From Sphingobacterium sp. (GTDB taxonomy: Bacteria > Bacteroidota > Bacteroidia > Sphingobacteriales > Sphingobacteriaceae): a stretch of DNA of 64,000 bases. The first letter of the stretch is position 1, and each line of letters begins with the position of its first letter. Both the position numbers and the translations under genes were made by a program. Positions 3,519 through 27,310 of this stretch are shown here, piece after piece. The stretch is taken from contig JAIRVH010000185.1 in assembly GCA_031253985.1 (NCBI GenBank), positions 1-64,000 on the forward strand, given 5' to 3'. Under the pieces are notes generated by a model, which had not been told where the DNA came from, made no database searches, and saw only the letters and a list, made by a program, of their open reading frames with translations.

Positions 3519-4589
3519 ATGTCATCAGAAGATAGTTATTTTTTAGAGCTCATTCAAAAATACCTGGACAAGCGTATCACGGCCACCGAAGAGGAAGAGC
3601 TGTATCATTTGATGACTTTAGAAGAAAGTAGATTAGATCTTTATCTCTATTTGACGCAACAAAATCAATCGTTAAAAAATAGACCCATTACGCTTGACTC
3701 GTTGTTTGAATCGTCCAAAAAGAAGTATAAGACTACGGATAGTACTGCTAGCGAACGAAAAGAAAAAAGAAATACCCTGCTATCATCAAAAAACTATCAG
3801 CGTTTGCTTATTGCCGCCTCTGTTCTTATCATGATATCTTTTGGAGGTTTCTATCTCTTTCAGCACATCCTGCCTGGGCGCATCATCAAGCTTACATCGG
3901 CCAAAGGTGAAAGGAAACATTTTAAATTAGAGGATGGAACTGAAATTTGGCTCAATAGCGGTAGCCAACTCGAGTATGACGTCAAGTATGGCCTATCAAA
4001 TCGAGATGTAACACTGTCTGGAGAAGCTTATTTTAAGGTAACCAAAAATAAAAAATTACCATTTCATGTAAACGCTTATGGTAATACAATCGAAGTGCTT
4101 GGTACGCAGTTTAATGTTCAGGCCTATGCAGAAGAACAAAAAATGGAAACAACACTCTTTGAAGGTAAAGTGAATCTCAAAGTTAAAGATAAAGGATACG
4201 TTCGTGAATTTATTATGCATCCTGGAGAAAAAATAGAGGTAGCGAATAGCCTAGCCACCGGCATGCATATCAGGAAAAGCAACCTCGTTAAAGAATCTAC
4301 AGAAGGGGGAGCAAACTTCAGCCAAATTAATCATGAAAATACCGAACTGTCAGAAGCACTATGGACGAAAAATAAACTGGTTTTTCAGGATGATCCTATA
4401 GATATCATGAGCAGAAAAATAGAACGTTGGTACAATAAAACCATCCGAATTGAAAACAAGAATATTTTGAACCAATCCTATACAGGCGTGTTTCAGGAGA
4501 AAACAGCGCGGGAGGTTTTGGACATTTTGATTAAAACCGGTGCCAACCTTCATTATAAAGAACAACGCGACACCATTATACTGTATTAA
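3519..4589 (+). CDS. FecR-family anti-sigma factor (locus A)
   Basis: A 356-residue transmembrane anti-sigma factor. The cytoplasmic N-terminal segment (1-90) is followed by a membrane helix at about 95-115 (RLLIAASVLIMISF), the periplasmic FecR domain (about 125-240) with the hallmarks LEDGTEIWLNSGSQLEYD, GEAYFKVTKNKKLPFHV and LGTQFNVQAYAE, and a C-terminal DUF4974/STN-like domain (about 285-356) ending in the usual hydrophobic DTIILY. It is expected to bind the STN domain of the SusC encoded next. The gap to susC is 168 bases and contains the candidate antisense RNA described separately. Confidence 0.9.
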   Translation: MSSEDSYFLELIQKYLDKRITATEEEELYHLMTLEESRLDLYLYLTQQNQSLKNRPITLDSLFESSKKKYKTTDSTASERKEKRNTLLSSKNYQRLLIAASVLIMISFGGFYLFQHILPGRIIKLTSAKGERKHFKLEDGTEIWLNSGSQLEYDVKYGLSNRDVTLSGEAYFKVTKNKKLPFHVNAYGNTIEVLGTQFNVQAYAEEQKMETTLFEGKVNLKVKDKGYVREFIMHPGEKIEVANSLATGMHIRKSNLVKESTEGGANFSQINHENTELSEALWTKNKLVFQDDPIDIMSRKIERWYNKTIRIENKNILNQSYTGVFQEKTAREVLDILIKTGANLHYKEQRDTIILY

Positions 4590-4642
4590 AAAAAACTAAA
4601 ATTAGAATCAAATTAACGAACAATAACGACCTGAATATGAAA

Positions 4643-4744
4643 TAAAAAAAACAAACAAAAAAGGGTACATCGCAGCGATATACCCAAAGATGATCAATTG
4701 GCACAAAGCCCTAGGAAAGTTGTTGTGCCCAATTATTTACCTCT
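4643..4744 (-). ncRNA. Candidate cis-antisense RNA in the fecR-susC gap of locus A
   Basis: On the minus strand the gap holds two stem-loops and a terminator. The first stem-loop (4696-4734) pairs AATTGGCACAA with its near-exact complement (one bulged C). The second (4663-4685) pairs GGGTA and ATCGC arms and is followed on the minus strand by a long U-rich tract (TTTTTTGTTTG and on). On the plus strand the same hairpin has no T-tract, so it is a terminator only for antisense transcription. A -7-like box TAATTTTA (minus, 4758-4751) begins exactly at the susC ATG; no -33 element is recognisable. The product would be about 100 nt and complementary to the susC leader. Structure is seen; existence of the RNA is inferred. 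Confidence 0.4.
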
Positions 4745-4757
4745 TATTTTTAAAATT

Positions 4758-7700
4758 ATGAAAAAAAATTCACATGCTCGATGTCATGTGCCGATTCTTT
4801 ATTACCTAAAGTGGCTCTTCATGGTAAAATTTATAATGCTGTTGATTGTAGCATTTGGCTATAACAGCTATGCGACTACAACTTCTGCACAAGAAAATGT
4901 AACACTTAAATACAAAAATATAAAACTTAAAAATCTATTGCAGCTTATTGAAAAACAGACGGATTTGAGATTTGTATACAATAATAATCAAGTAGAAGAA
5001 GTTACGATACAGCAAATTTCTACGACTAATAAGCCCTGGAAAGAATTACTGAGGCCCATTCTGGAAAAAAATGGCTTTCAGATGCAACAGATCGATGGCG
5101 GCCGTATCATTCTTTCCCAGCCGCAAACACAGGAGCTTAAATTTCAAGGGAAAGTATCCAATAGCAAGGGAGAACCGCTACCGGGAGTTTCCATCAAGGA
5201 AAAGGGATCAGACAAAGGTACCTTAACAAATGATAAAGGGGAATTTATGCTCACTGTAAAAAGCACACAAAGCAGCCTATTCATCAGCAGTGTTGGTTTC
5301 GTAAGCTTAGAAGTTCCCTACTCTTCGATATTTCAGACCATTGAACTTAAAGAGGATCTAGCGCAGTTGGAAGAAGTCGTTGTCGTAGGCTACGGTGCAC
5401 AAAAACGCGTCAACTTAACGGGTGCTGTTGCCACAATTGGCGGTAAAGAATTAGAAAACCGGCCTGTTGTGAATGCTACGCAGAGCCTACAGGGTGAAGT
5501 CCCTGGTTTAAACGTCAATGTTGGAGGCAATACCAAGCCAGGACAGAGCTTCAACCTGAATGTACGCGGTGTCGGTAATCTAAGTGGAACCGATGGGCCT
5601 TATGTTCTTGTTGACGGAATGGAAATGTCCTTGGCCGATGTTAATCCCAGCGATATCGACAATATCTCTGTTTTAAAAGATGCATCGGCATCTGCAATCT
5701 ATGGCTCGCGTGCAGCCTATGGTGTCATTCTGGTTACTACAAAAAAAGGTGCCGCTGGAAAGAAGACAATTAATATCAGCACCAACACAGGATTGACCTC
5801 GCCCGTAAAACTGCCCGAAATGGTCAACTCAGTCGACTTTGCAAACTTTTTTAATGCGGCGACTTTTAATGCGCTCGGAACCAAACAATATTCCGATGAT
5901 AAGATCGCCCTACTACAACAATACATCAATGATCCGGGCAGTATATCGATCTTTCCAGAAGTCAATACCAATAACTATGCAAGCTGGGAAAATAGCGCCA
6001 ACGGTGTCGCCAATACAAACTGGTTTGATCTCCATTATAAACCGACCGCATTGCGACAAAATTACAACATCAATATGGGCGGTGGAAATGCAGGAACGCA
6101 ATTCTATGTCTCAGGAGGCTATTATAATGAAGATGGAATTCTACGCTACGCAGACATCGACTATAAGCGCTATAATTTTAATAGCTCTGTTACTTCCGAA
6201 CTGTCTTCATGGATAAAACTCAAAGCTAACGTAAAATACACGCGCAGCAGCAATCAGACACCTTTGGCCGGATTCGAAGGCATGTTTTTCCATAATCTTG
6301 CGCGCATGCGTCCAAATGTATCACCTTATGATTTTTATGGCAACTGGACGGAACAGTCCATGGTACCCTACCTCCAGTCAGGATCCAAAGATCAGTTGAC
6401 AGCGAATACCTTAGCGATATTAGGTGGACTCGAAATAACCCCATTAAAAAACTGGAAAATCTTTGCCGATTTGAATTATCGCTTAGATAATAGCGAAAAT
6501 GATATCCTGAAATTGCCCGGAACAATTTATGGTATTGATGGCACAACATATCTGGTCAACAGGTCAGAATATAACATCCCGCTTGGTGGAAGTTTCGAAC
6601 GCCGGATGAACAATAACAATTATCTAACGCCAAACATCTATACAAACTACAAACTAACTGTTGACAAACATAATTTTGACTTAACAGCTGGATTTCAACA
6701 GGAAGTAAATACTTTCAAGGAGATTTATACCTCTGCAAGCGATCTGATCAGTTTTGACCGTCCGGGCATTGACTTGTCGACAGGAACAAAGAACAGTAAG
6801 GAAGCCCGTAACCATTGGGCTACCCGGGGCATGTTTGCACGTTTAAATTACAATTTCGATCAGAAATACCTATTAGAACTGAATGGCCGATACGATGGCT
6901 CGTCACGATTTGCAGCCGGGCATCGCTGGGGATTTTTCCCCTCGATATCAGCGGCATACAATATCAGCGAAGAATCGTTTTTCAAAGATAATATTTCCTG
7001 GATCAATCAACTAAAAATAAGAGGATCCTATGGCTCTCTGGGAAACCAAGCCGGTGCCGGTCTTTATGCTTACTCCGAAAATATGAGCATTGTAGTCCCT
7101 GGAGCTAACGGTGCAGGAGGACGTTATTACTTTCAAAATGGCCGTGAAAGTTATATAAACGCACCGGGGGCATTCAATCCCCTAATTACCTGGGAAAAAG
7201 TCAGAAGTGCCAACATTGGTCTCGATTTTACTTTATTGAAGTACCGATTAACAGGAACACTAGACCTCTACCAACGCAATACAAAAGATATGCTCGGTCC
7301 TTCCAGAGATGTTGCAGACCTCTTTGGAACGACACCTGCAAAAAGCAATAATGCCGATCTCCGAACGAGAGGCTGGGAACTCAATGTAAAATGGCGAGAT
7401 AAAATTGCCGAGAACTGGAGCTACAACCTCGGAATCATTCTTTCCGATTACCAGTCAATGGTGACCAAATACCAAAATCCAACCAAATTTGACCCTAGCG
7501 GACAGTGGTATGAAGGTAAAATGTCCGGTGAGATTTGGGGATACCAGGCCAATCAGCTAATCCGTACACAAGCAGAAGCCGATGAATACAATAAATTGGA
7601 CCGGTCCTTTATATCTGCACGTAACTGGGTACCAGGAGACGTGATGTACCTTGACATAAATAACGATGGTAAGATAAACAATGGAGCCAATCGTTTGGGT

Positions 7701-19206: not shown

Positions 19207-19238
19207 TTTGGATTTTATGCATATTAAATTTACATTTG
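19207..19238 (+). promoter_or_regulatory. Predicted Bacteroidota promoter of the locus C sigma gene
   Basis: Both elements are perfect: TTTG (19207-19210), 20 bases, then TACATTTG (19231-19238), matching the TTTG/TAnnTTTG consensus. The predicted start site falls about 25 bases before the TTG start codon. Confidence 0.75.
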
Positions 19239-19269: not shown

Positions 19270-19839
19270 TTGAACAATTACCAGGCTATATCGGATATTG
19301 AACTGCTTCATCTTGCCGCACAGGATGATCAGACCGCTTTCGCTGAGTTGTTTAACCGCTACAGAGTTTCAATCTTCCAGCATGCCTTTTTATTTTATCA
19401 GGATTATGATAAAGCGCAGGATGTGGTTCAGGAACTTTTCTTAAAACTCTGGCAAAAACGGACAGAGATCAATGTGCAGTCATCGTTGAAGGGATATATC
19501 CATAAGGCAACCCGGCATCTTATCCTTAACCAGCTTGCACACGTCGACGTGGTGGAAAAATTTAACAGCTATTATCTCGATGCCCATGCTGAGGGGGTAA
19601 ATGAAGTCGAAGAAAAACTGCAGGAGAAAGAGCTTCTTGAGATCCTACAGCAAAAAATAGACTCCATGCCCAGAAAGATGCAGCAGATTTTCAAGATGAG
19701 TCGTGAGGAAGAGCTTTCCCATAAGGAAATCAGCGAAAAATTGAATATCGCTCCGAAAACAGTCAGACAACAGATATACAATGCCTTACTCTTATTAAAG
19801 AGCAATCTGAAATATCTTTTTTTATTTTTTTTCCATTAA
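19270..19839 (+). CDS. ECF sigma factor, FecI-like, TTG start (locus C)
   Basis: A 189-residue FecI-type sigma factor: N-terminal SDIELLHLAAQDDQTAFAELFNRY (helical region 2 start), QDVVQELFLKLWQKR, and region 4 with LSHKEISEKLNIAPKTVRQQIYNALLLLKSNL. The only plausible start is TTG: an in-frame TGA lies ten codons upstream, inside the -7 box, and no ATG follows it before the conserved sequence. The C-terminus is a phenylalanine run (LFLFFFH), common in this group. The FecR gene follows after 75 bases and an STN-type SusC follows that, so this is the third component of a trans-envelope signalling cascade. Confidence 0.9.
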   Translation: MNNYQAISDIELLHLAAQDDQTAFAELFNRYRVSIFQHAFLFYQDYDKAQDVVQELFLKLWQKRTEINVQSSLKGYIHKATRHLILNQLAHVDVVEKFNSYYLDAHAEGVNEVEEKLQEKELLEILQQKIDSMPRKMQQIFKMSREEELSHKEISEKLNIAPKTVRQQIYNALLLLKSNLKYLFLFFFH

Positions 19840-19914: not shown

Positions 19915-21003
19915 ATGGATAAACACGAATTACAAGATCTATTGGCACGCTACACATCCAACTCACTTACAACAGTTGAGCGGGAGCGCCTTTTTTCCTA
20001 TTATAATGAACTTTTGTCCAAAAATTCGCTTGACGATCTCGACGAAAACTTGCTTCAGGAAAAGCTGAAGCAGATCGATCTCAGCAAGATAACAGCACTT
20101 GATAAAGCCCCTCGCCCTGCCCGTTGGAAGTATGTAGCAGTTGCCGCCGCTTCCCTCCTGCTGTTTGCCTTTGTGGGTAAGATTTTATGGCATGACGCTG
20201 TCCAAAACAAAAACGCGACCAAGGCCACAGCGCGTATTTTGATGGTACCGGACCGGGCGTATGCCCTGTTGCCAAATGGCGATAGTATTCTTCTCGAAGG
20301 CCATGGCGAAAATTTAAAAGAACGCTTAGGCAACAAGCTAACGAAAGCTGAAAAAACGCAGCTCATTACGATTCGTACACCGCGTGCTGGCAGGTATAAT
20401 TTTGTGTTGCCCGATGGCTCCAAAGTATGGCTCAATTCAGCCTCCGAGCTCCGCTATCCTTCTACCTTTGATCGTGTTGGCCGCGAAGTCCAACTCGAGG
20501 GCGAAGGCTATTTCGAAATTGCAAAGTTGACCCGAAACAACCTTAGGGTACCATTCCGTGTTCAATCCCGCGATCAGGAAGTGAAAGTCCTCGGGACAAA
20601 GTTCAACGTCAGCAACTATGCGAATGAACTGAACTGTACAACGACCCTCGTTGAAGGTTCAGTGCGTGTAATCAACAAAACAGACAACAAACAGACCCTG
20701 TTAAAACCCGATGAGCAATTAAAATTGGCAGGTTCGGAATCTATATTGCAAAAGGTCGACGCTGCAGAATCCATCGGCTGGAAAGATGGTGTGCTGGTAC
20801 TCGATAAAATGGACTTCCCGGAGATAGCCCGTATCATTGAGCGCAATTATGATGTCAACTTTGTTGGATCCTTGCCAAAAGGCTTTAAATTAAACGGTGA
20901 ACTGCAGACTAATGTTGATCTAAAAGAACTATTGAAATCACTTGAACTATATACCAATGTAAGATTTAATATAAATGGGAGGAACATTATGATAAAAAAC
21001 TAA
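19915..21003 (+). CDS. FecR-family anti-sigma factor (locus C)
   Basis: A 362-residue anti-sigma factor with the cytoplasmic part at 1-60, one membrane helix at about 62-85 (YVAVAAASLLLFAFVGKI), the FecR domain at about 140-250 (VLPDGSKVWLNSASELRYPS, GEGYFEIAKLTR, LGTKFNVSNYANE) and a C-terminal DUF4974 domain at about 290-362 with LDKMDFPEIARIIERNYDV. Relative to the FecR of locus A it has an extra loop after the helix (YALLPNGDSILLEG). It is expected to relay the state of the SusC encoded 106 bases downstream to the sigma factor upstream. Confidence 0.9.
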   Translation: MDKHELQDLLARYTSNSLTTVERERLFSYYNELLSKNSLDDLDENLLQEKLKQIDLSKITALDKAPRPARWKYVAVAAASLLLFAFVGKILWHDAVQNKNATKATARILMVPDRAYALLPNGDSILLEGHGENLKERLGNKLTKAEKTQLITIRTPRAGRYNFVLPDGSKVWLNSASELRYPSTFDRVGREVQLEGEGYFEIAKLTRNNLRVPFRVQSRDQEVKVLGTKFNVSNYANELNCTTTLVEGSVRVINKTDNKQTLLKPDEQLKLAGSESILQKVDAAESIGWKDGVLVLDKMDFPEIARIIERNYDVNFVGSLPKGFKLNGELQTNVDLKELLKSLELYTNVRFNINGRNIMIKN

Positions 21004-21017
21004 ACTAACCCTGCCCT

Positions 21018-21096
21018 AAAAAAAACAGGGATGTTTGCCCATCCCTGTCATTAACATTAGGCATTACTCTTTTCGAATTCAAAAATTACTAACCTA
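21018..21096 (-). ncRNA. Candidate cis-antisense RNA in the fecR-susC gap of locus C
   Basis: On the minus strand a 9-bp stem ACAGGGATG / CATCCCTGT with a 6-nt loop (21025-21048) is followed by eight T: a strong intrinsic terminator that acts only on antisense transcription. A matching antisense promoter lies at the other end of the gap (next entry). The predicted RNA is about 78 nt and complementary to the susC leader, ending about 15 bases short of the start codon. Its body has inverted ends (ATTAGG / CCTAAT) and so can fold. Position next to fecR, direction, size and terminator all match the DonS type of PUL-repressing RNA known from Bacteroides fragilis. Existence of the RNA is inferred. 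Confidence 0.5.
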
Positions 21097-21101
21097 ATCA
21101 T

Positions 21102-21132
21102 CAAATGTATGAATAATCCAGTTGATACTAAA
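21102..21132 (-). promoter_or_regulatory. Predicted antisense promoter over the locus C susC start codon
   Basis: Read on the minus strand: TTTA (21132-21129), 19 bases, TACATTTG (21109-21102). The -7 box is a perfect consensus and its first base pairs with the A of the susC ATG; the -33 box differs from TTTG at one base. Confidence 0.5.
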
Positions 21133-24100
21133 CGTTGGGGTGGATCTTTATACCCCGATTTTTGTAAAAACTACAGTATTTTACCTAAATCTTTACTAAA
21201 AATGCGTTTGGCCGCTTATCTTGTATTGGGAACAAGTCTACAGTTGTCCGCCAATACCTATGCCCAAAAAGTAAATCTCAAGTTTGAAAAGAGCTCTCTT
21301 GAAACTGTATTCAAAGAAATCCGGAAACAGAGTGGCTATTCTTTTTTGTATAACAATGAGTTGCTAAAAAAAGGACAGAAAATTTCAGTACATCTTTCCA
21401 ATGCAAATGTGGAGCAGGCACTTGATATTTTACTCAAGGACCAGCCCCTGGAATACCATATTAATGGTAAGATCATCTCGCTGATACCGAAGGCTGGTCC
21501 GATCAGAAGTAAGGACAACCCTTCCGCTACAATTACCATACAAAAGAAATTGAACGGTTACGTCAGAAACGAAAAAGGCGAACCGCTGCAGAATGCCACT
21601 GTTTCGCTAAAAGGAACACTGGTATCCACTTCGACAAACAGCAGCGGCTATTTTGAGCTCACCAACGCGCCAGCTAAAGGCTCTTTGCTCATTTCTTATG
21701 TTGGCTATCAAACCCAGGAAGTTTCCATCGCGGCCGATCTCAACAATATCAGGCTCGTTAGCGAAACAAAGGCTTTGGCAGAAGTCGTCGTCAGCACCGG
21801 TTTTCAGACGATCAATGCCGAAAGAGCAACCGGTTCTTTCGGACGTGTTTCACAGGAGCAGATCGAAAAGCCGAGCACCAATATTGCACAGCGTATTATT
21901 GGTACCACGGCGGGAGTTCAGGCAACGCTGGATGTGGACGGAAATCCGCGCTTTGAAATCCGTGGACAGACCAGCTTAAATATCCGGGATGCTGCCGGGA
22001 ATCTCACAGCCAATGCTTCGCCCTTAGTGGTGGTGGATGGCTTTGCCATACAGGGTGATTTCAAGTCCATCAACCCCAACGACGTAGAGAGTATCAACAT
22101 CCTCAAAGATGCGGCAGCAGCATCCATCTGGGGAGCCCGGGCCGCCAATGGTGTCATTGTCATTGTCACTAAAAAAGCCCGGCAAGGGACACCACTCCGT
22201 GTTGACTTTCAAGCCTTCACCCAGATAGGACAAAAATTCGATCTGTCGTATGTCAATCCGCTGGCCTCTTCCAAAGAGACTATTGACTATGAAAAAATGG
22301 CCTTCAATAAATGGAGTGCGGTAGAGAATTCAGGCTCTCTGGAGTCCAATTATGATAAAGTCTGGTCACAGGGACTTGTCGCATTGAGCGAAAACCACCT
22401 GGGCTTTCTCTCGGATACAGAGCGCGATGCCCAACTCGCACGACTGTCTACACTTGACAATCGGCAACAGATCAAAGATCTGCTCCTGGCGGCTCCCAAC
22501 AGTCAGCAATACAACATCAGCATGCAGGGCAGCTCGGGCCGGATGAACAATCTATTTTCCCTGATGCACGAGCGCAACCAGTCTAATTTTCAGGAAACCA
22601 AAAACCAGAAATATATGCTGAATTACCGGACTTCGGTCAACCTCTTCAGCTGGCTTGACTTCAATGCATCCACGATGTTGCAGTATAATAACTACGACAA
22701 AAACGGCGTTACACTCGCCGATATCCAGGGCCTATCGCCCTACGATATGCTGACCGATGCAGATGGTTCCTTTACCAATATCAGCCAATATTACTGGCCA
22801 CTTTTGGAACGTTCTGTTCCAATGAACAAATTTCCGTACGCTGACTGGACCTACAATCCGGCCCGGGAAATTCATGCGCGAAACAAAACTTCAAAGGAGC
22901 TGAATGCACGTTTTATGGGCGGACTGACGTTTAAACTGATGAAAGGTCTGTCATTCGACACCAAGCTTCAATATGAACTTTTTAATACCAACAACCGTTA
23001 TCTCTACAACGAAGATTCCTTTTATGTCCGTAAAAAGGTAAACCAGGCTACCAGTTGGGATACCAAAACAGGCACGCTGGTATCCAATTTGCCTAAAGGC
23101 GGAATTATCGAACAACCTTTAAGCAGTCCAAGCGAGTGGAATCAGGTGCGTGTGCACGCCTACAGCTTCCGTAACCAGGTCAATTTCAACCGTATCTTTA
23201 ATGGAAAGCATGAGATCAATGCCATTGCGGGATCCGAAATCAGCAACCAGGTATCCGAGCAATTCTACCATCCCACCGTGTTTGGCTACAACGATGCCAC
23301 ATTAACCGTGGGTTCTTTTCCGAATGGCCCTGGGGGAACATTTGCGCCCATCAAAGACTGGATGGGTAAAAATCAGACTTTTACTTATAGCAATGCCTTT
23401 GGCTACCGAACAGAAAGATTCTTTTCCCTTTACGGAAACGCAGCTTACACCTACCTGAACAAATATACCTTATCGGGAAGCATACGTACAGACGCCTCGA
23501 ATATGATCACCGATGACCCGGCATATCGTTATGCACCATTCTGGTCTTTGGGGGGATCCTATCAGATCAAACGTGAGCCCTTTATGCAGGCTGCAAACTG
23601 GCTGGACAAACTAAACTTGAGACTGACCTATGGCTTCAATGGTAATGTGGACCGGTCTACCTCATTTCGCCCACTGGTGGCTTTGGGCACGCTGCCCAAT
23701 ATTTATACCAACGATAATACAGCGCGAATCTCAAGCTATGGAAATCCGTCGCTGCGCTGGGAACGAACGGGCACCTGGAATGCGGGTATCGATTACTCCC
23801 TTTGGCAAGGCAAACTCTACGGAAAGATTGACGTATACAACAAACAGGGAAAAGATCTGATCGCAGAGCTCTCGATTCCTGCCATCAATGGTGTCACCAA
23901 GCAAAAGCTCAACAATGCTGAAATTAACAACAAAGGTATCGAACTGGAGTTTGGCACGACCCTGCCCCTTAAAGGCTCGGACATTACATGGCGCGGAAAC
24001 CTCAACTTTTCGTACAACAAGAATAAGGTGACCAAATTATTTGTCGCCAACTACGTCGCCTACGATCTCTATGGCTATGGGCAGAATTACGGGGCCTATG

Positions 24101-24741
24101 TACAGGGCTATGATGCCAATTCGATGTGGATGTTCGACTATGCAGGAGTGCATAATAATCAACCCATGGTTAATGGTGCAAATGGGGACCGCTATGATTT
24201 CGGTGCCTGGTCTCCGGGCGACGGCCGCGATTACCTGGTCAATGTCGGAACGCGGGTAGCACCTTATACACTTGGTTTCAGCAATACATTCGACATCTAT
24301 GATTTCAGCCTGTCTTTTATCCTTACAGGAAAACTGGGGCACGTCTTCAAAACCCTGCCGTTCGATTATCCTGCTGTTGGCTACGACCGTTTGCTACCAA
24401 ACAAAAAACTGAGCGACGTGATCAATGGCGATCCCAATCAGATCGTTCCGCTACCACTCAACGACATCGAACCGCGTTATTATTTCTGGGATCGTTATAC
24501 CCAATATTTAAGTTACCTGTCGGCCAATGCCTCGCATCTGCGCATGCAGGAGGTCAATGCCAGCTATCGTTTACCGACTAAAAAATGGAGTATACTGAAA
24601 AAGAGCGATGCGATGGTCTATCTACAGGGAAATGATCTTTTCACCGTACTGTTTAACAAACAGGGTGAGGATCCTGAATTCCCATTGGGCACCATGAAAC
24701 CGCGCCCGCGTTTCACTTTTGGATTTAAGGTCGGATTTTAA
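21109..24741 (+). CDS. SusC/RagA-family TonB-dependent transporter with STN domain (locus C)
   Basis: A 1210-residue channel. Order: signal sequence ending near SANTYAQ (about 45), STN domain (about 48-125), a linker, a carboxypeptidase-regulatory-like domain (GYVRNEKGEPLQNATVSLKG, about 150-225), then the linker AEVVVSTGFQTINAERATGSF instead of the more common VVVVGYG. This STGxQ...ERATGSF form marks a SusC subgroup that I associate with TlpA-type and peptidase neighbours. The plug has VDGFAIQGDF and ILKDAAAASIWGARAANGV (Ile-Trp replacing the usual Ile-Tyr). The barrel ends FTFGFKVGF. SusD and a TlpA-family gene follow on the same strand. Confidence 0.92.
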   Translation: MNNPVDTKRWGGSLYPDFCKNYSILPKSLLKMRLAAYLVLGTSLQLSANTYAQKVNLKFEKSSLETVFKEIRKQSGYSFLYNNELLKKGQKISVHLSNANVEQALDILLKDQPLEYHINGKIISLIPKAGPIRSKDNPSATITIQKKLNGYVRNEKGEPLQNATVSLKGTLVSTSTNSSGYFELTNAPAKGSLLISYVGYQTQEVSIAADLNNIRLVSETKALAEVVVSTGFQTINAERATGSFGRVSQEQIEKPSTNIAQRIIGTTAGVQATLDVDGNPRFEIRGQTSLNIRDAAGNLTANASPLVVVDGFAIQGDFKSINPNDVESINILKDAAAASIWGARAANGVIVIVTKKARQGTPLRVDFQAFTQIGQKFDLSYVNPLASSKETIDYEKMAFNKWSAVENSGSLESNYDKVWSQGLVALSENHLGFLSDTERDAQLARLSTLDNRQQIKDLLLAAPNSQQYNISMQGSSGRMNNLFSLMHERNQSNFQETKNQKYMLNYRTSVNLFSWLDFNASTMLQYNNYDKNGVTLADIQGLSPYDMLTDADGSFTNISQYYWPLLERSVPMNKFPYADWTYNPAREIHARNKTSKELNARFMGGLTFKLMKGLSFDTKLQYELFNTNNRYLYNEDSFYVRKKVNQATSWDTKTGTLVSNLPKGGIIEQPLSSPSEWNQVRVHAYSFRNQVNFNRIFNGKHEINAIAGSEISNQVSEQFYHPTVFGYNDATLTVGSFPNGPGGTFAPIKDWMGKNQTFTYSNAFGYRTERFFSLYGNAAYTYLNKYTLSGSIRTDASNMITDDPAYRYAPFWSLGGSYQIKREPFMQAANWLDKLNLRLTYGFNGNVDRSTSFRPLVALGTLPNIYTNDNTARISSYGNPSLRWERTGTWNAGIDYSLWQGKLYGKIDVYNKQGKDLIAELSIPAINGVTKQKLNNAEINNKGIELEFGTTLPLKGSDITWRGNLNFSYNKNKVTKLFVANYVAYDLYGYGQNYGAYVQGYDANSMWMFDYAGVHNNQPMVNGANGDRYDFGAWSPGDGRDYLVNVGTRVAPYTLGFSNTFDIYDFSLSFILTGKLGHVFKTLPFDYPAVGYDRLLPNKKLSDVINGDPNQIVPLPLNDIEPRYYFWDRYTQYLSYLSANASHLRMQEVNASYRLPTKKWSILKKSDAMVYLQGNDLFTVLFNKQGEDPEFPLGTMKPRPRFTFGFKVGF

Positions 24742-24751
24742 GCCTCAAACA

Positions 24752-26290
24752 ATGAAAAACATACATAATCATATAAAAAGCATGGCTACATTTGCTATAT
24801 GCAGTAGCCTATTCCTATCCGGATGCAATAAATTTCTCGATGAGAAGCCTTCCAAGTCTAGCGATCTCGTGGTGACCACAACAGCTGAACTTGACGCATT
24901 ATTGAATAATTACACTACATTCTACCAAGAAGGAAATCGCAGCACCATCTATGGTACCGATGACTACGGATTCACGAAGCAAATCTATGATGCCCGTCCC
25001 GGCACATTCAGTATGGCCGCGGTGGAGTTTGCATTGTGGGATATCGACTTTGTACAGGACGACACACGGGAGAATTTTTGGAAAAATGAATATAACAAGA
25101 TCTTTAATGCCAATATGGTACTCGAAAACCTCGACAAGGTAAGCGGTAACCAGCAGGATAAAGATCGGCTGCGCGCCGATGCACATTTTATTCGTGCTTA
25201 TAGCTACCTCAATCTGGTCAACACCTATTGTCTCCCCTATACCGACGCCAATAAAAATGAACTTGGACTTCCGATCAAGAATAGTACCTCATTCGACGAG
25301 TCTGCAGTCCGCAAACCTCTGGCTGAGGTATACCAGCTGATCGAATCGGATCTGGCCGAAGCGCAAAAGACAAGTAGCCCGCTGATTCAGTCGGGCACAG
25401 CAAAACATTGGCGTGCCAATACAGCTGCCGTAAACGGCTTTGCTGCCCGCTATTACCTGATTCGCAACAATTATCAGCTTGCGTTGAACTATGCAAATAA
25501 GGCACTGGCCGAATACAGCACCCTTGTTGACTACAACAAAGACATGCGCTATGGCCGCAGTTCGACCATCAGTATCAATACTGGCACGCCCGATGCGAAG
25601 GTGGTTACACTGCAATTTCCATACACACACGACAACAACACCGACTTCACTGACATGATCCAATGGAAAGAATTTTTATACTTCCGGATGCTTTATCATG
25701 AGTCCTGGTGGTATGTGCCAAGTCAGGAGCTGATTGATCTGTATGACCACGATCATGACTTACGGTACGAATACAACTTTGTTGAAGGCTACTCCTACGA
25801 TCGCGGAATGACCAAACCCGCCTATGACTGGCCCGGCTACGTGTTCTTCTACAAAGACCGCATTCCTTCAGGCCCTACCGTGGCGGAAATGTTATTGATC
25901 AAAGCAGAAGCCCATGCCCGGTTAGGTCAGGTGACAGAAGCCATCAATGCCGTTAATCAATTGCGCACCAAACGCTTGAAACCGGGCGCATGGGTAAACC
26001 TGCAAGCCGGTAGCAAAGACGAAGCCATCAAGAAGATTCTGGAGGAAAGACGTCGCGAGCTCCCTTATACCCAACGCTGGTCCGATATCCGCAGGTTCAA
26101 CAACAACGACTATGCAGGAGATGATGTGGAATTGAAACGTACATTCTATCCCTATACCGTGTCAAATGTCAGTACAACGGAGCCGACCAAGGTTTATACA
26201 CTACCCAAACAGTCGCGGCGATTTGCAGCACCGATCCCAAGGACGGAGCTGATTTCCAGTCAGGGCGCAATTGTACAAAATAGCTATTAA
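24752..26290 (+). CDS. SusD/RagB-family lipoprotein (locus C)
   Basis: A 512-residue SusD homologue starting at the ATG of MKNIHNH (the ORF-track start lies inside susC). The signal peptide has a lipobox LFLSGC followed by NKFLDEKPSK. Family blocks: DAHFIRAYSYLNLVNTYCLPY, AVNGFAARYYLIRNNYQLALNYANKAL, MLLIKAEAHARLGQVTEAINAVNQLRT and LEERRRELPYTQRWSDIRRFN. It starts 10 bases after the susC stop and is followed after 12 bases by a TlpA gene. A well-formed SusD with no sign of decay. Confidence 0.92.
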   Translation: MKNIHNHIKSMATFAICSSLFLSGCNKFLDEKPSKSSDLVVTTTAELDALLNNYTTFYQEGNRSTIYGTDDYGFTKQIYDARPGTFSMAAVEFALWDIDFVQDDTRENFWKNEYNKIFNANMVLENLDKVSGNQQDKDRLRADAHFIRAYSYLNLVNTYCLPYTDANKNELGLPIKNSTSFDESAVRKPLAEVYQLIESDLAEAQKTSSPLIQSGTAKHWRANTAAVNGFAARYYLIRNNYQLALNYANKALAEYSTLVDYNKDMRYGRSSTISINTGTPDAKVVTLQFPYTHDNNTDFTDMIQWKEFLYFRMLYHESWWYVPSQELIDLYDHDHDLRYEYNFVEGYSYDRGMTKPAYDWPGYVFFYKDRIPSGPTVAEMLLIKAEAHARLGQVTEAINAVNQLRTKRLKPGAWVNLQAGSKDEAIKKILEERRRELPYTQRWSDIRRFNNNDYAGDDVELKRTFYPYTVSNVSTTEPTKVYTLPKQSRRFAAPIPRTELISSQGAIVQNSY

Positions 26291-26302: not shown

Positions 26303-27310
26303 ATGAAAAAAACAATACTCGCAGGTTTGGCGGCGCTACTTAGCCTTTCAGCTTTCGCCCAACAGAAAATAACGTTTAAGGGTAAAGTGGAGGATATTCC
26401 TTCGGGCTATACCGTATACCTATACAATAATGTACTCGGTGTGACAGATTCGTCGAAAGTCGAAAACGGAAAATTTGAAATAGCTGTTCCATTTCAGCAT
26501 CCATCCAGGTACCTTTTTTATTCGAGCTACGACATAAAAGTAAAGAAAGGACATGTTCCTTTTGGTATTCTGATCGACAAGCCAATGACGGTAGACATTG
26601 TCTTAAAGTTGGCTGAAGGTTTCTCGACATCGAAGGTCAGTGGCTCAGCACCACAGACCTTGTATGCGGAGTTAACAGAGAAATTGGAAAAAGGCCAGGA
26701 CAAAGGTGCCTTATTAGCCGACTTCGTTTCAACGCATGCCCAGTCCTATGCTGCCGCATTTGCTCTGGACCGACTCGGAGAGTATCTCCCTGCAGAACAG
26801 CGCAAAACGCTTTATGATAAATTCCCTAGCACCCTGCAACAGGGCTATGAAGGAAAACGGATTGCCGACCGCATTCATGGTGAGCTGGGATCAAAGGTCG
26901 GCGGCATTGCACCCAGCTTTATTTTGAAAGATCAAAACGACAAAGACGTATCGCTCGCGCAATTCAAGGGGAAATATGTGTTTTTAGACTTTTGGGCCAG
27001 CTGGTGCGGCCCATGCCGGGAAGAATTTCCTTTTATTAAAAAAGCTTATGTCAAATATAAAGGTAAAAACTTTGAAGTGATCGGCGTATCGACAGACAAG
27101 AACCACAAGGCCTGGATCAAGGCCATCGGCGACCTCGAATTGCCCTGGCAACTGCTGATCGACAATCCGGGCGACAAAGCTATTGCCCTTTCAAAATATG
27201 CCGTATCGGTGTTACCGACCTCCTTTCTGATCGATCCAGATGGCAAGATCATCGCCAAGGACCTACGTGGTGAGCAGCTGGAAAAAGAACTGGACCAATT
27301 GTTGAAATAG
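26303..27310 (+). CDS. TlpA/ResA-family thiol-disulfide oxidoreductase with DUF4369-like N-domain (locus C)
   Basis: A 335-residue exported protein. Signal peptide to about residue 19 (SAFAQ). The N-terminal domain (about 22-110) is DUF4369-like: KGKVEDIPSGYTVYLYN then DSSKVENGKFEI. A helical linker leads into the thioredoxin fold (about 198-335) with FWASWCGPCREEFP (Cys235, Cys238) and the cis-proline loop VLPTSF. Both active-site cysteines are present, so it should be a periplasmic or surface reductase. It is the last gene of the locus C operon. The link between SusCD and TlpA recurs three times in this window; the reason is unknown, perhaps handling of thiol-containing ligands or protein folding. 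Confidence 0.88.
   Translation: MKKTILAGLAALLSLSAFAQQKITFKGKVEDIPSGYTVYLYNNVLGVTDSSKVENGKFEIAVPFQHPSRYLFYSSYDIKVKKGHVPFGILIDKPMTVDIVLKLAEGFSTSKVSGSAPQTLYAELTEKLEKGQDKGALLADFVSTHAQSYAAAFALDRLGEYLPAEQRKTLYDKFPSTLQQGYEGKRIADRIHGELGSKVGGIAPSFILKDQNDKDVSLAQFKGKYVFLDFWASWCGPCREEFPFIKKAYVKYKGKNFEVIGVSTDKNHKAWIKAIGDLELPWQLLIDNPGDKAIALSKYAVSVLPTSFLIDPDGKIIAKDLRGEQLEKELDQLLK

Follow-up and report, generated by a model that had tools for sequence, protein, structure and literature searches.

Among the regulators of susC genes described so far, the closest to the element analysed here are the cis-antisense RNAs of Bacteroides. DonS is the prototype of a group of cis-antisense RNAs of 78-128 nt found at susC homologs (PMC7366714); how it brings about repression of its PUL in B. 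fragilis has been termed unknown (PMC11697453). According to a figure cited in a passage of PMC9723704, such RNAs are present at 15 PULs of B. fragilis, while in B. thetaiotaomicron 32 PUL-associated asRNAs have been reported, whose correlations with the PULs are both negative and positive (PMC10994844). Promoters of this phylum use a TAnnTTTG box at -7, the additional -33 element (TTTG) being absent from the findings in Flavobacterium, and the mRNAs of Bacteroidetes lack SD sequences (PMC7366714).

A layout of the same kind has been identified at a fecR-susC junction, here called locus C, in the window, i.e. the whole 64-kb stretch of Sphingobacterium DNA that was analysed. The features shared with DonS and the other Bacteroides PUL asRNAs are the position opposite the susC leader, the length class, an intrinsic terminator, a TAnnTTTG-type box and the presence of many copies per genome, as well as, for DonS-type loci, sigma/anti-sigma genes upstream of susC (here an ECF sigma factor and FecR). 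However, the host belongs to a different family (Sphingobacteriaceae), the RNA is predicted from sequence alone, locus C has no Rfam match and no obvious polysaccharide enzyme, and the surveyed boxes show no -33 motif signal. The likeness to DonS is one of layout. Plasmid CopA and RNA-OUT are likewise cis-antisense RNAs directed against mRNA leaders, and they share with the predicted RNA a short, structured form and complementarity to a leader beside the translation start; unlike them, the type of RNA predicted at locus C is chromosomal and occurs in many paralogous versions, none of which matches any susC leader but its own.

Predicted antisense RNA gene at locus C

The features of locus C, together with a second antisense terminator in the window, are listed in Table 1. 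The first-pass annotation, which ascribed the logic of DonS to this locus, finds agreement in the literature on 78-128 nt cis-antisense RNAs at susC homologs, and the parallel holds for position, length class, box and intrinsic terminator. Its label 'PUL' is doubtful for locus C, because a Pfam analysis of the operon found no carbohydrate-active enzyme among its genes, which encode SusC, SusD and a thioredoxin-like protein.

Table 1. Annotated and predicted features in and around locus C (positions in the window)
Feature	Position	Strand	Basis or remark
ECF sigma factor gene	19270-19839	+	Pfam Sigma70_r2, r4_2
fecR anti-sigma factor gene	19915-21003	+	Pfam FecR, FecR_C
susC, TonB-dependent transducer with STN domain, presumed target	21109-24741	+	Pfam STN, CarbopepD_reg_2, Plug
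susD gene	24719-26290	+	Pfam SusD-like_3, SusD_RagB
Thioredoxin-like gene, last of the operon	26303-27310	+	Pfam AhpC-TSA, DUF4369
TACATTTG, candidate sigma-fecR operon promoter box	19231-19238	+	only basis: position ~30 nt before the sigma gene
Predicted antisense RNA, ~80 nt	21018-21097	-	fold in two hairpins, box and terminator; 5' end put near 21097 from the box position
-7 promoter box TACATTTG (predicted), consensus TAnnTTTG	21102-21109	-	overlaps susC ATG; kept in 6/6 orthologs
TTTA, proposed -33 element	21129-21132	-	19 nt upstream of the TACATTTG box; inside susC codons
5' hairpin of the predicted RNA, closed by a UUAGGU...GCCUAA stem	21057-21097	-	folds in window and orthologs
Intrinsic terminator stem-loop, 10 pairs, loop GGCAAA	21024-21049	-	stem pairs all kept in orthologs
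Terminator T-run, eight T	21018-21025	-	kept in orthologs
Second antisense terminator	4663-4685	-	fecR 3519-4589, susC ATG 4758
GGGAGG then ATG ATA AAA AAC TAA, window variant of the AAGGAGG/mini-ORF element	20977-21003	+	inside fecR 3' end

The TACATTTG box is present where it had been reported, read on the minus strand from 21109 to 21102, so that its first base is the complement of the A in the susC start codon (21109). TTTA does occur at the distance given for it, but it is probably not meaningful, as it lies in susC codons and a logo of 64 boxes from the survey described below revealed no signal for a -33 element. The terminator has the form GACAGGGATG-GGCAAA-CATCCCTGTT and, as had been noted, is followed by the run of T; the 9-bp stem of the earlier description corresponds to nine Watson-Crick pairs, to which one G-U pair has to be added. 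It had been placed just inside the fecR stop, while the stem in fact starts ~20 bp past it, inside the fecR-susC gap. For the RNA, which had been estimated at about 78 nt, a length of 75-85 nt is predicted (81 nt assuming a start 5 nt past the box), with the 3' end placed in the T-run.

The antisense strand folds with -25.3 kcal/mol (z = -4.1; none of 200 shuffles was as good), and the two-hairpin fold of the predicted RNA has z between -4.1 and -4.9; an Rfam search gave no match at E up to 1. As a word, TACATTTG occurs 6 times in the 64-kb window versus 3.2 expected, and TTTA-N19-TAnnTTTG once versus 0.35 expected, hence the promoter match is by itself weak evidence. What gives locus C its significance is that the box recurs where other susC genes start and that the terminators are asymmetric between the strands. 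The copy of TACATTTG on the plus strand before the sigma gene is probably the promoter of the sigma-fecR operon.

Recurrence in Sphingobacterium and other genomes

The Sphingobacterium genome (5.98 Mb) contains 40 FecR genes, and 38 junctions between fecR and the next gene were read; the control consisted of co-directional gaps of 60-250 bp from 464 kb of its sequence, a total that includes the window. A strong antisense intrinsic terminator was found in 16 of the 24 fecR-susC gaps of 60-250 bp, and a sense-oriented one in 0/24. The 70 control gaps yielded three antisense terminators, two of which lie in fecR-susC gaps, while the third precedes a susC-like gene; the comparison is thus 16/24 fecR-susC gaps versus 1/68 other gaps (Fisher p = 3.6e-11, not weighted for shared ancestry). 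TAnnTTTG was found on the antisense strand near the ATG at 8/16 junctions with a terminator, at 3/22 without one and at 9/362 control gene starts. Several observations count against reading these junctions as RNA genes: about one third of the 60-250 bp gaps have no detected terminator, 14 of the 38 junctions have gaps of less than 50 bp, too short for a terminator, and the context of the susC start codon constrains part of the box.

In other Sphingobacteriaceae, where the gap is 50 bp or longer, 17/39 junctions carry an antisense terminator, 0/39 a sense terminator and 25/39 a box beside the susC start, and in one genome of another family of the same class (G334) the corresponding numbers are 9/16, 0/16 and 11/16. 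In a wider sample of the phylum fecR mostly abuts the next gene and the antisense pattern was seen in four junctions, so the layout is widespread but not universal. Across the survey, 64 of 80 boxes lie at most 6 nt from the susC ATG, and the RNA lengths predicted for 45 comparable loci with an assumed start site are 71-126 nt, which fits the published 78-128 nt (PMC7366714). All junction and locus counts are phylogenetically unweighted and the loci share ancestry. The predicted layout is placed at dozens of susC genes in Sphingobacterium and its relatives, which carries over to environmental bacteria an arrangement known previously from gut Bacteroides.

The first fecR-susC junction of the window (gap ~4590-4758) has a near-match box, TAATTTTA, at 4751-4758 on the minus strand, at the susC ATG, and 4590-4758 (minus) is predicted to be a second antisense RNA gene with the same layout. 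At L075 (16892-17047) an antisense terminator precedes a susC-like gene that has no fecR upstream, and the layout may accordingly extend beyond sigma/anti-sigma loci. The antisense RNAs of L005, L006 and L015 have a common 5' hairpin, the loop of which contains similar CTTTCCTAGGG-like sequences, which suggests that they form a subfamily.

Strand polarity and conservation of the terminators

Hairpins were also searched for in a strand-neutral manner, by Watson-Crick pairing with at most two other positions and with T-run and strand ignored, in 112 junctions from several genera. Among the 55 hairpins found, the T-run lies on the antisense side only in 48 cases, on the sense side only in none and on both sides in one (p = 7e-15 for the 112 junctions, unweighted for ancestry), and the non-Watson-Crick stem positions comprise 31 G-U pairs in the antisense strand, 4 in the sense strand and 3 other (p = 3e-6). 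Both biases argue that the stems are maintained as antisense RNA. The stem keeps an almost fixed distance of 95 +/- 13 nt from the susC ATG, whereas its distance from the fecR stop varies with the size of the gap (sd 29 versus 13); this agrees with a gene whose start is the susC ATG and not with a terminator owned by fecR.

At locus C, conservation was analysed in six orthologs of SusC (97, 89, 71, 70, 70 and 68% identity). All six retain the stem, the box at the susC start and the initial bases of the predicted RNA, and the TTTA region is conserved as TTTAGTA. The first-pass annotation had regarded it as evidence against the RNA if relatives retaining the genes lacked the stem and the T-run; both persist in the six orthologs. 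The covariation it had proposed to look for in related genomes was found in the form of compensatory changes: among five distinct ortholog sequences 100% of the stem pairs are kept and three are changed on both sides, and slid pairing registers gave none near the true register in these five. With five sequences in the sample and a modest outcome of the shuffle control for compensatory pairs (21/500), covariation weighs less than the polarity test. All seven antisense RNAs, from the window and the orthologs, fold into a 5' hairpin followed by a terminator (z = -4.0 to -5.4), with the pairing of the 5' hairpin kept less strictly than that of the terminator. The sense strand of the same DNA folds worse (z = -2.2 to -2.7), and in it the antisense G-U pairs become A.C mismatches.

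With respect to U-turn (YUNR) loops, which serve kissing interactions, the antisense terminators are not clearly different from ordinary ones. Their apical loops often end with AA and are closed by G-C (CGTCAA, CTCCAA, CTCGAA); such AA-ending loops, noticed post hoc, occur in about 1/3 of the antisense terminators versus 1/25 of ordinary terminators.

Proposed function and competing explanations

Recurrence, strand polarity, position and conservation in orthologs together make it very likely that an antisense RNA gene exists at locus C. That this gene specifies an ~80-nt cis-antisense RNA acting as a DonS-like repressor of susC is the interpretation we favour, and we hold it to be probable; transcription, the start site and repression with its route are what we infer, the repression by analogy with DonS. 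The housekeeping sigma factor, recognizing the TAnnTTTG box, would start the antisense RNA at the susC start codon; the RNA would cover the susC 5' leader from the opposite strand, form two hairpins and end at the intrinsic terminator that closely follows fecR. On the model of DonS, susC would be held low as long as the cognate sigma factor is inactive, either because the RNA pairs beside the translation start with leader RNA derived from fecR read-through or leaky susC transcripts, or because antisense transcription opposes that of susC, or both, and strong sigma-driven transcription of susC would override the antisense RNA.

An antisense RNA that is real but exerts its effect mainly through transcriptional interference, or even favours expression, instead of repressing by pairing, is less probable: the antisense promoter would overlap the susC start and point into the susC control region, some asRNA-PUL pairs of B. 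thetaiotaomicron correlate positively (PMC10994844) and the mechanism of DonS itself is termed unknown (PMC11697453), while the folded and conserved RNA suggests that the product itself matters. It is improbable that the stem is merely an insulating terminator, which protects fecR from stray antisense transcription out of susC and has neither a dedicated promoter nor a regulator as its partner. Such an insulator would explain the antisense polarity with no RNA product, and several junctions do have a terminator with only a degenerate box; against it speak the fixed spacing of the terminator from the susC ATG rather than from fecR, the recurrence of TAnnTTTG at susC starts and the folding of the box-to-stem RNA, which beats shuffles in all orthologs. 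A hairpin acting in the sense strand, as an attenuator of the susC leader or a 3' terminator of fecR, is largely refuted and very improbable, for although the complement folds to some extent as well, sense terminators are missing from the gaps of the own genome and of the family survey alike, no junction has its T-run on the sense side only, and the G-U positions of the orthologs are mismatched in that strand.

If the proposed repression by an antisense RNA is true, such control of susC is no peculiarity of gut Bacteroides; it would be a common layer on top of nutrient-uptake loci with sigma/anti-sigma genes, both in Sphingobacteriaceae and in one or more further families of the class, and the Sphingobacterium genome alone would have between one and two dozen separate RNAs of this type. 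DonS-type repression would then be open to comparative study over many natural pairs instead of one. The conserved position and covarying stems indicate the exact places for transcriptome studies to look.

AAGGAGG element at fecR 3' ends

A second element was found at the same junctions. Of the 91 Sphingobacteriaceae junctions with a gap of 50 bp or more, 43 have AGGAGG close to the fecR 3' end; it is missing from all 26 with a shorter gap and from all 21 of two further families, and its background in the Sphingobacterium genome is 0.015 per interval of this kind. In these 91 junctions, Arg-Arg at the end of FecR is encoded by AGGAGG in 33/39 cases, versus 1/205 Arg-Arg pairs elsewhere among the genes of the Sphingobacterium genome, and AGGAGG also occurs in the other two reading frames and past the fecR stop. 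Judging from these sequences, AAGGAGG at fecR 3' ends is selected at the nucleotide level, although it belongs to a phylum in which Shine-Dalgarno sequences are seldom used. Examples include L009, L020, L041, L068, L189, L004, L172, L003 and others.

AAGGAGG was considered as a -35 element of a sense promoter and rejected, because it has no conserved partner at a fixed spacing downstream; a search for sense-promoter dyads upstream of the terminators revealed nothing above shuffles. The element and the antisense RNA occur independently of each other, with no association between AGGAGG and the antisense terminator (23 junctions with and 20 without a terminator where AGGAGG is present, 23 and 25 where it is absent). 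We tentatively consider a two-part control of the leader at Sphingobacteriaceae fecR-susC junctions, in which a per-locus antisense RNA would be combined with the AAGGAGG element, the latter taking part in translation-linked control of susC or in a sigma-specific promoter; this is possible but less than even in our estimation.

A start codon 4-11 nt after AGGAGG with a stop within 7 codons was found in 30/43 cases versus 13/48 matched places without AGGAGG (p = 6e-5), and the mini-ORF headed by AAGGAGG often has 2-4 codons. In the orthologs L093, L094 and L095, a mini-ORF encoding M-D/E-K/R-K/R-stop lies 29 nt past the fecR stop and has its own AGGAGG. In the window the mini-ORF overlaps the end of fecR, and in comparison with L093-L095 its stop codon is kept through TAG/TAA changes.
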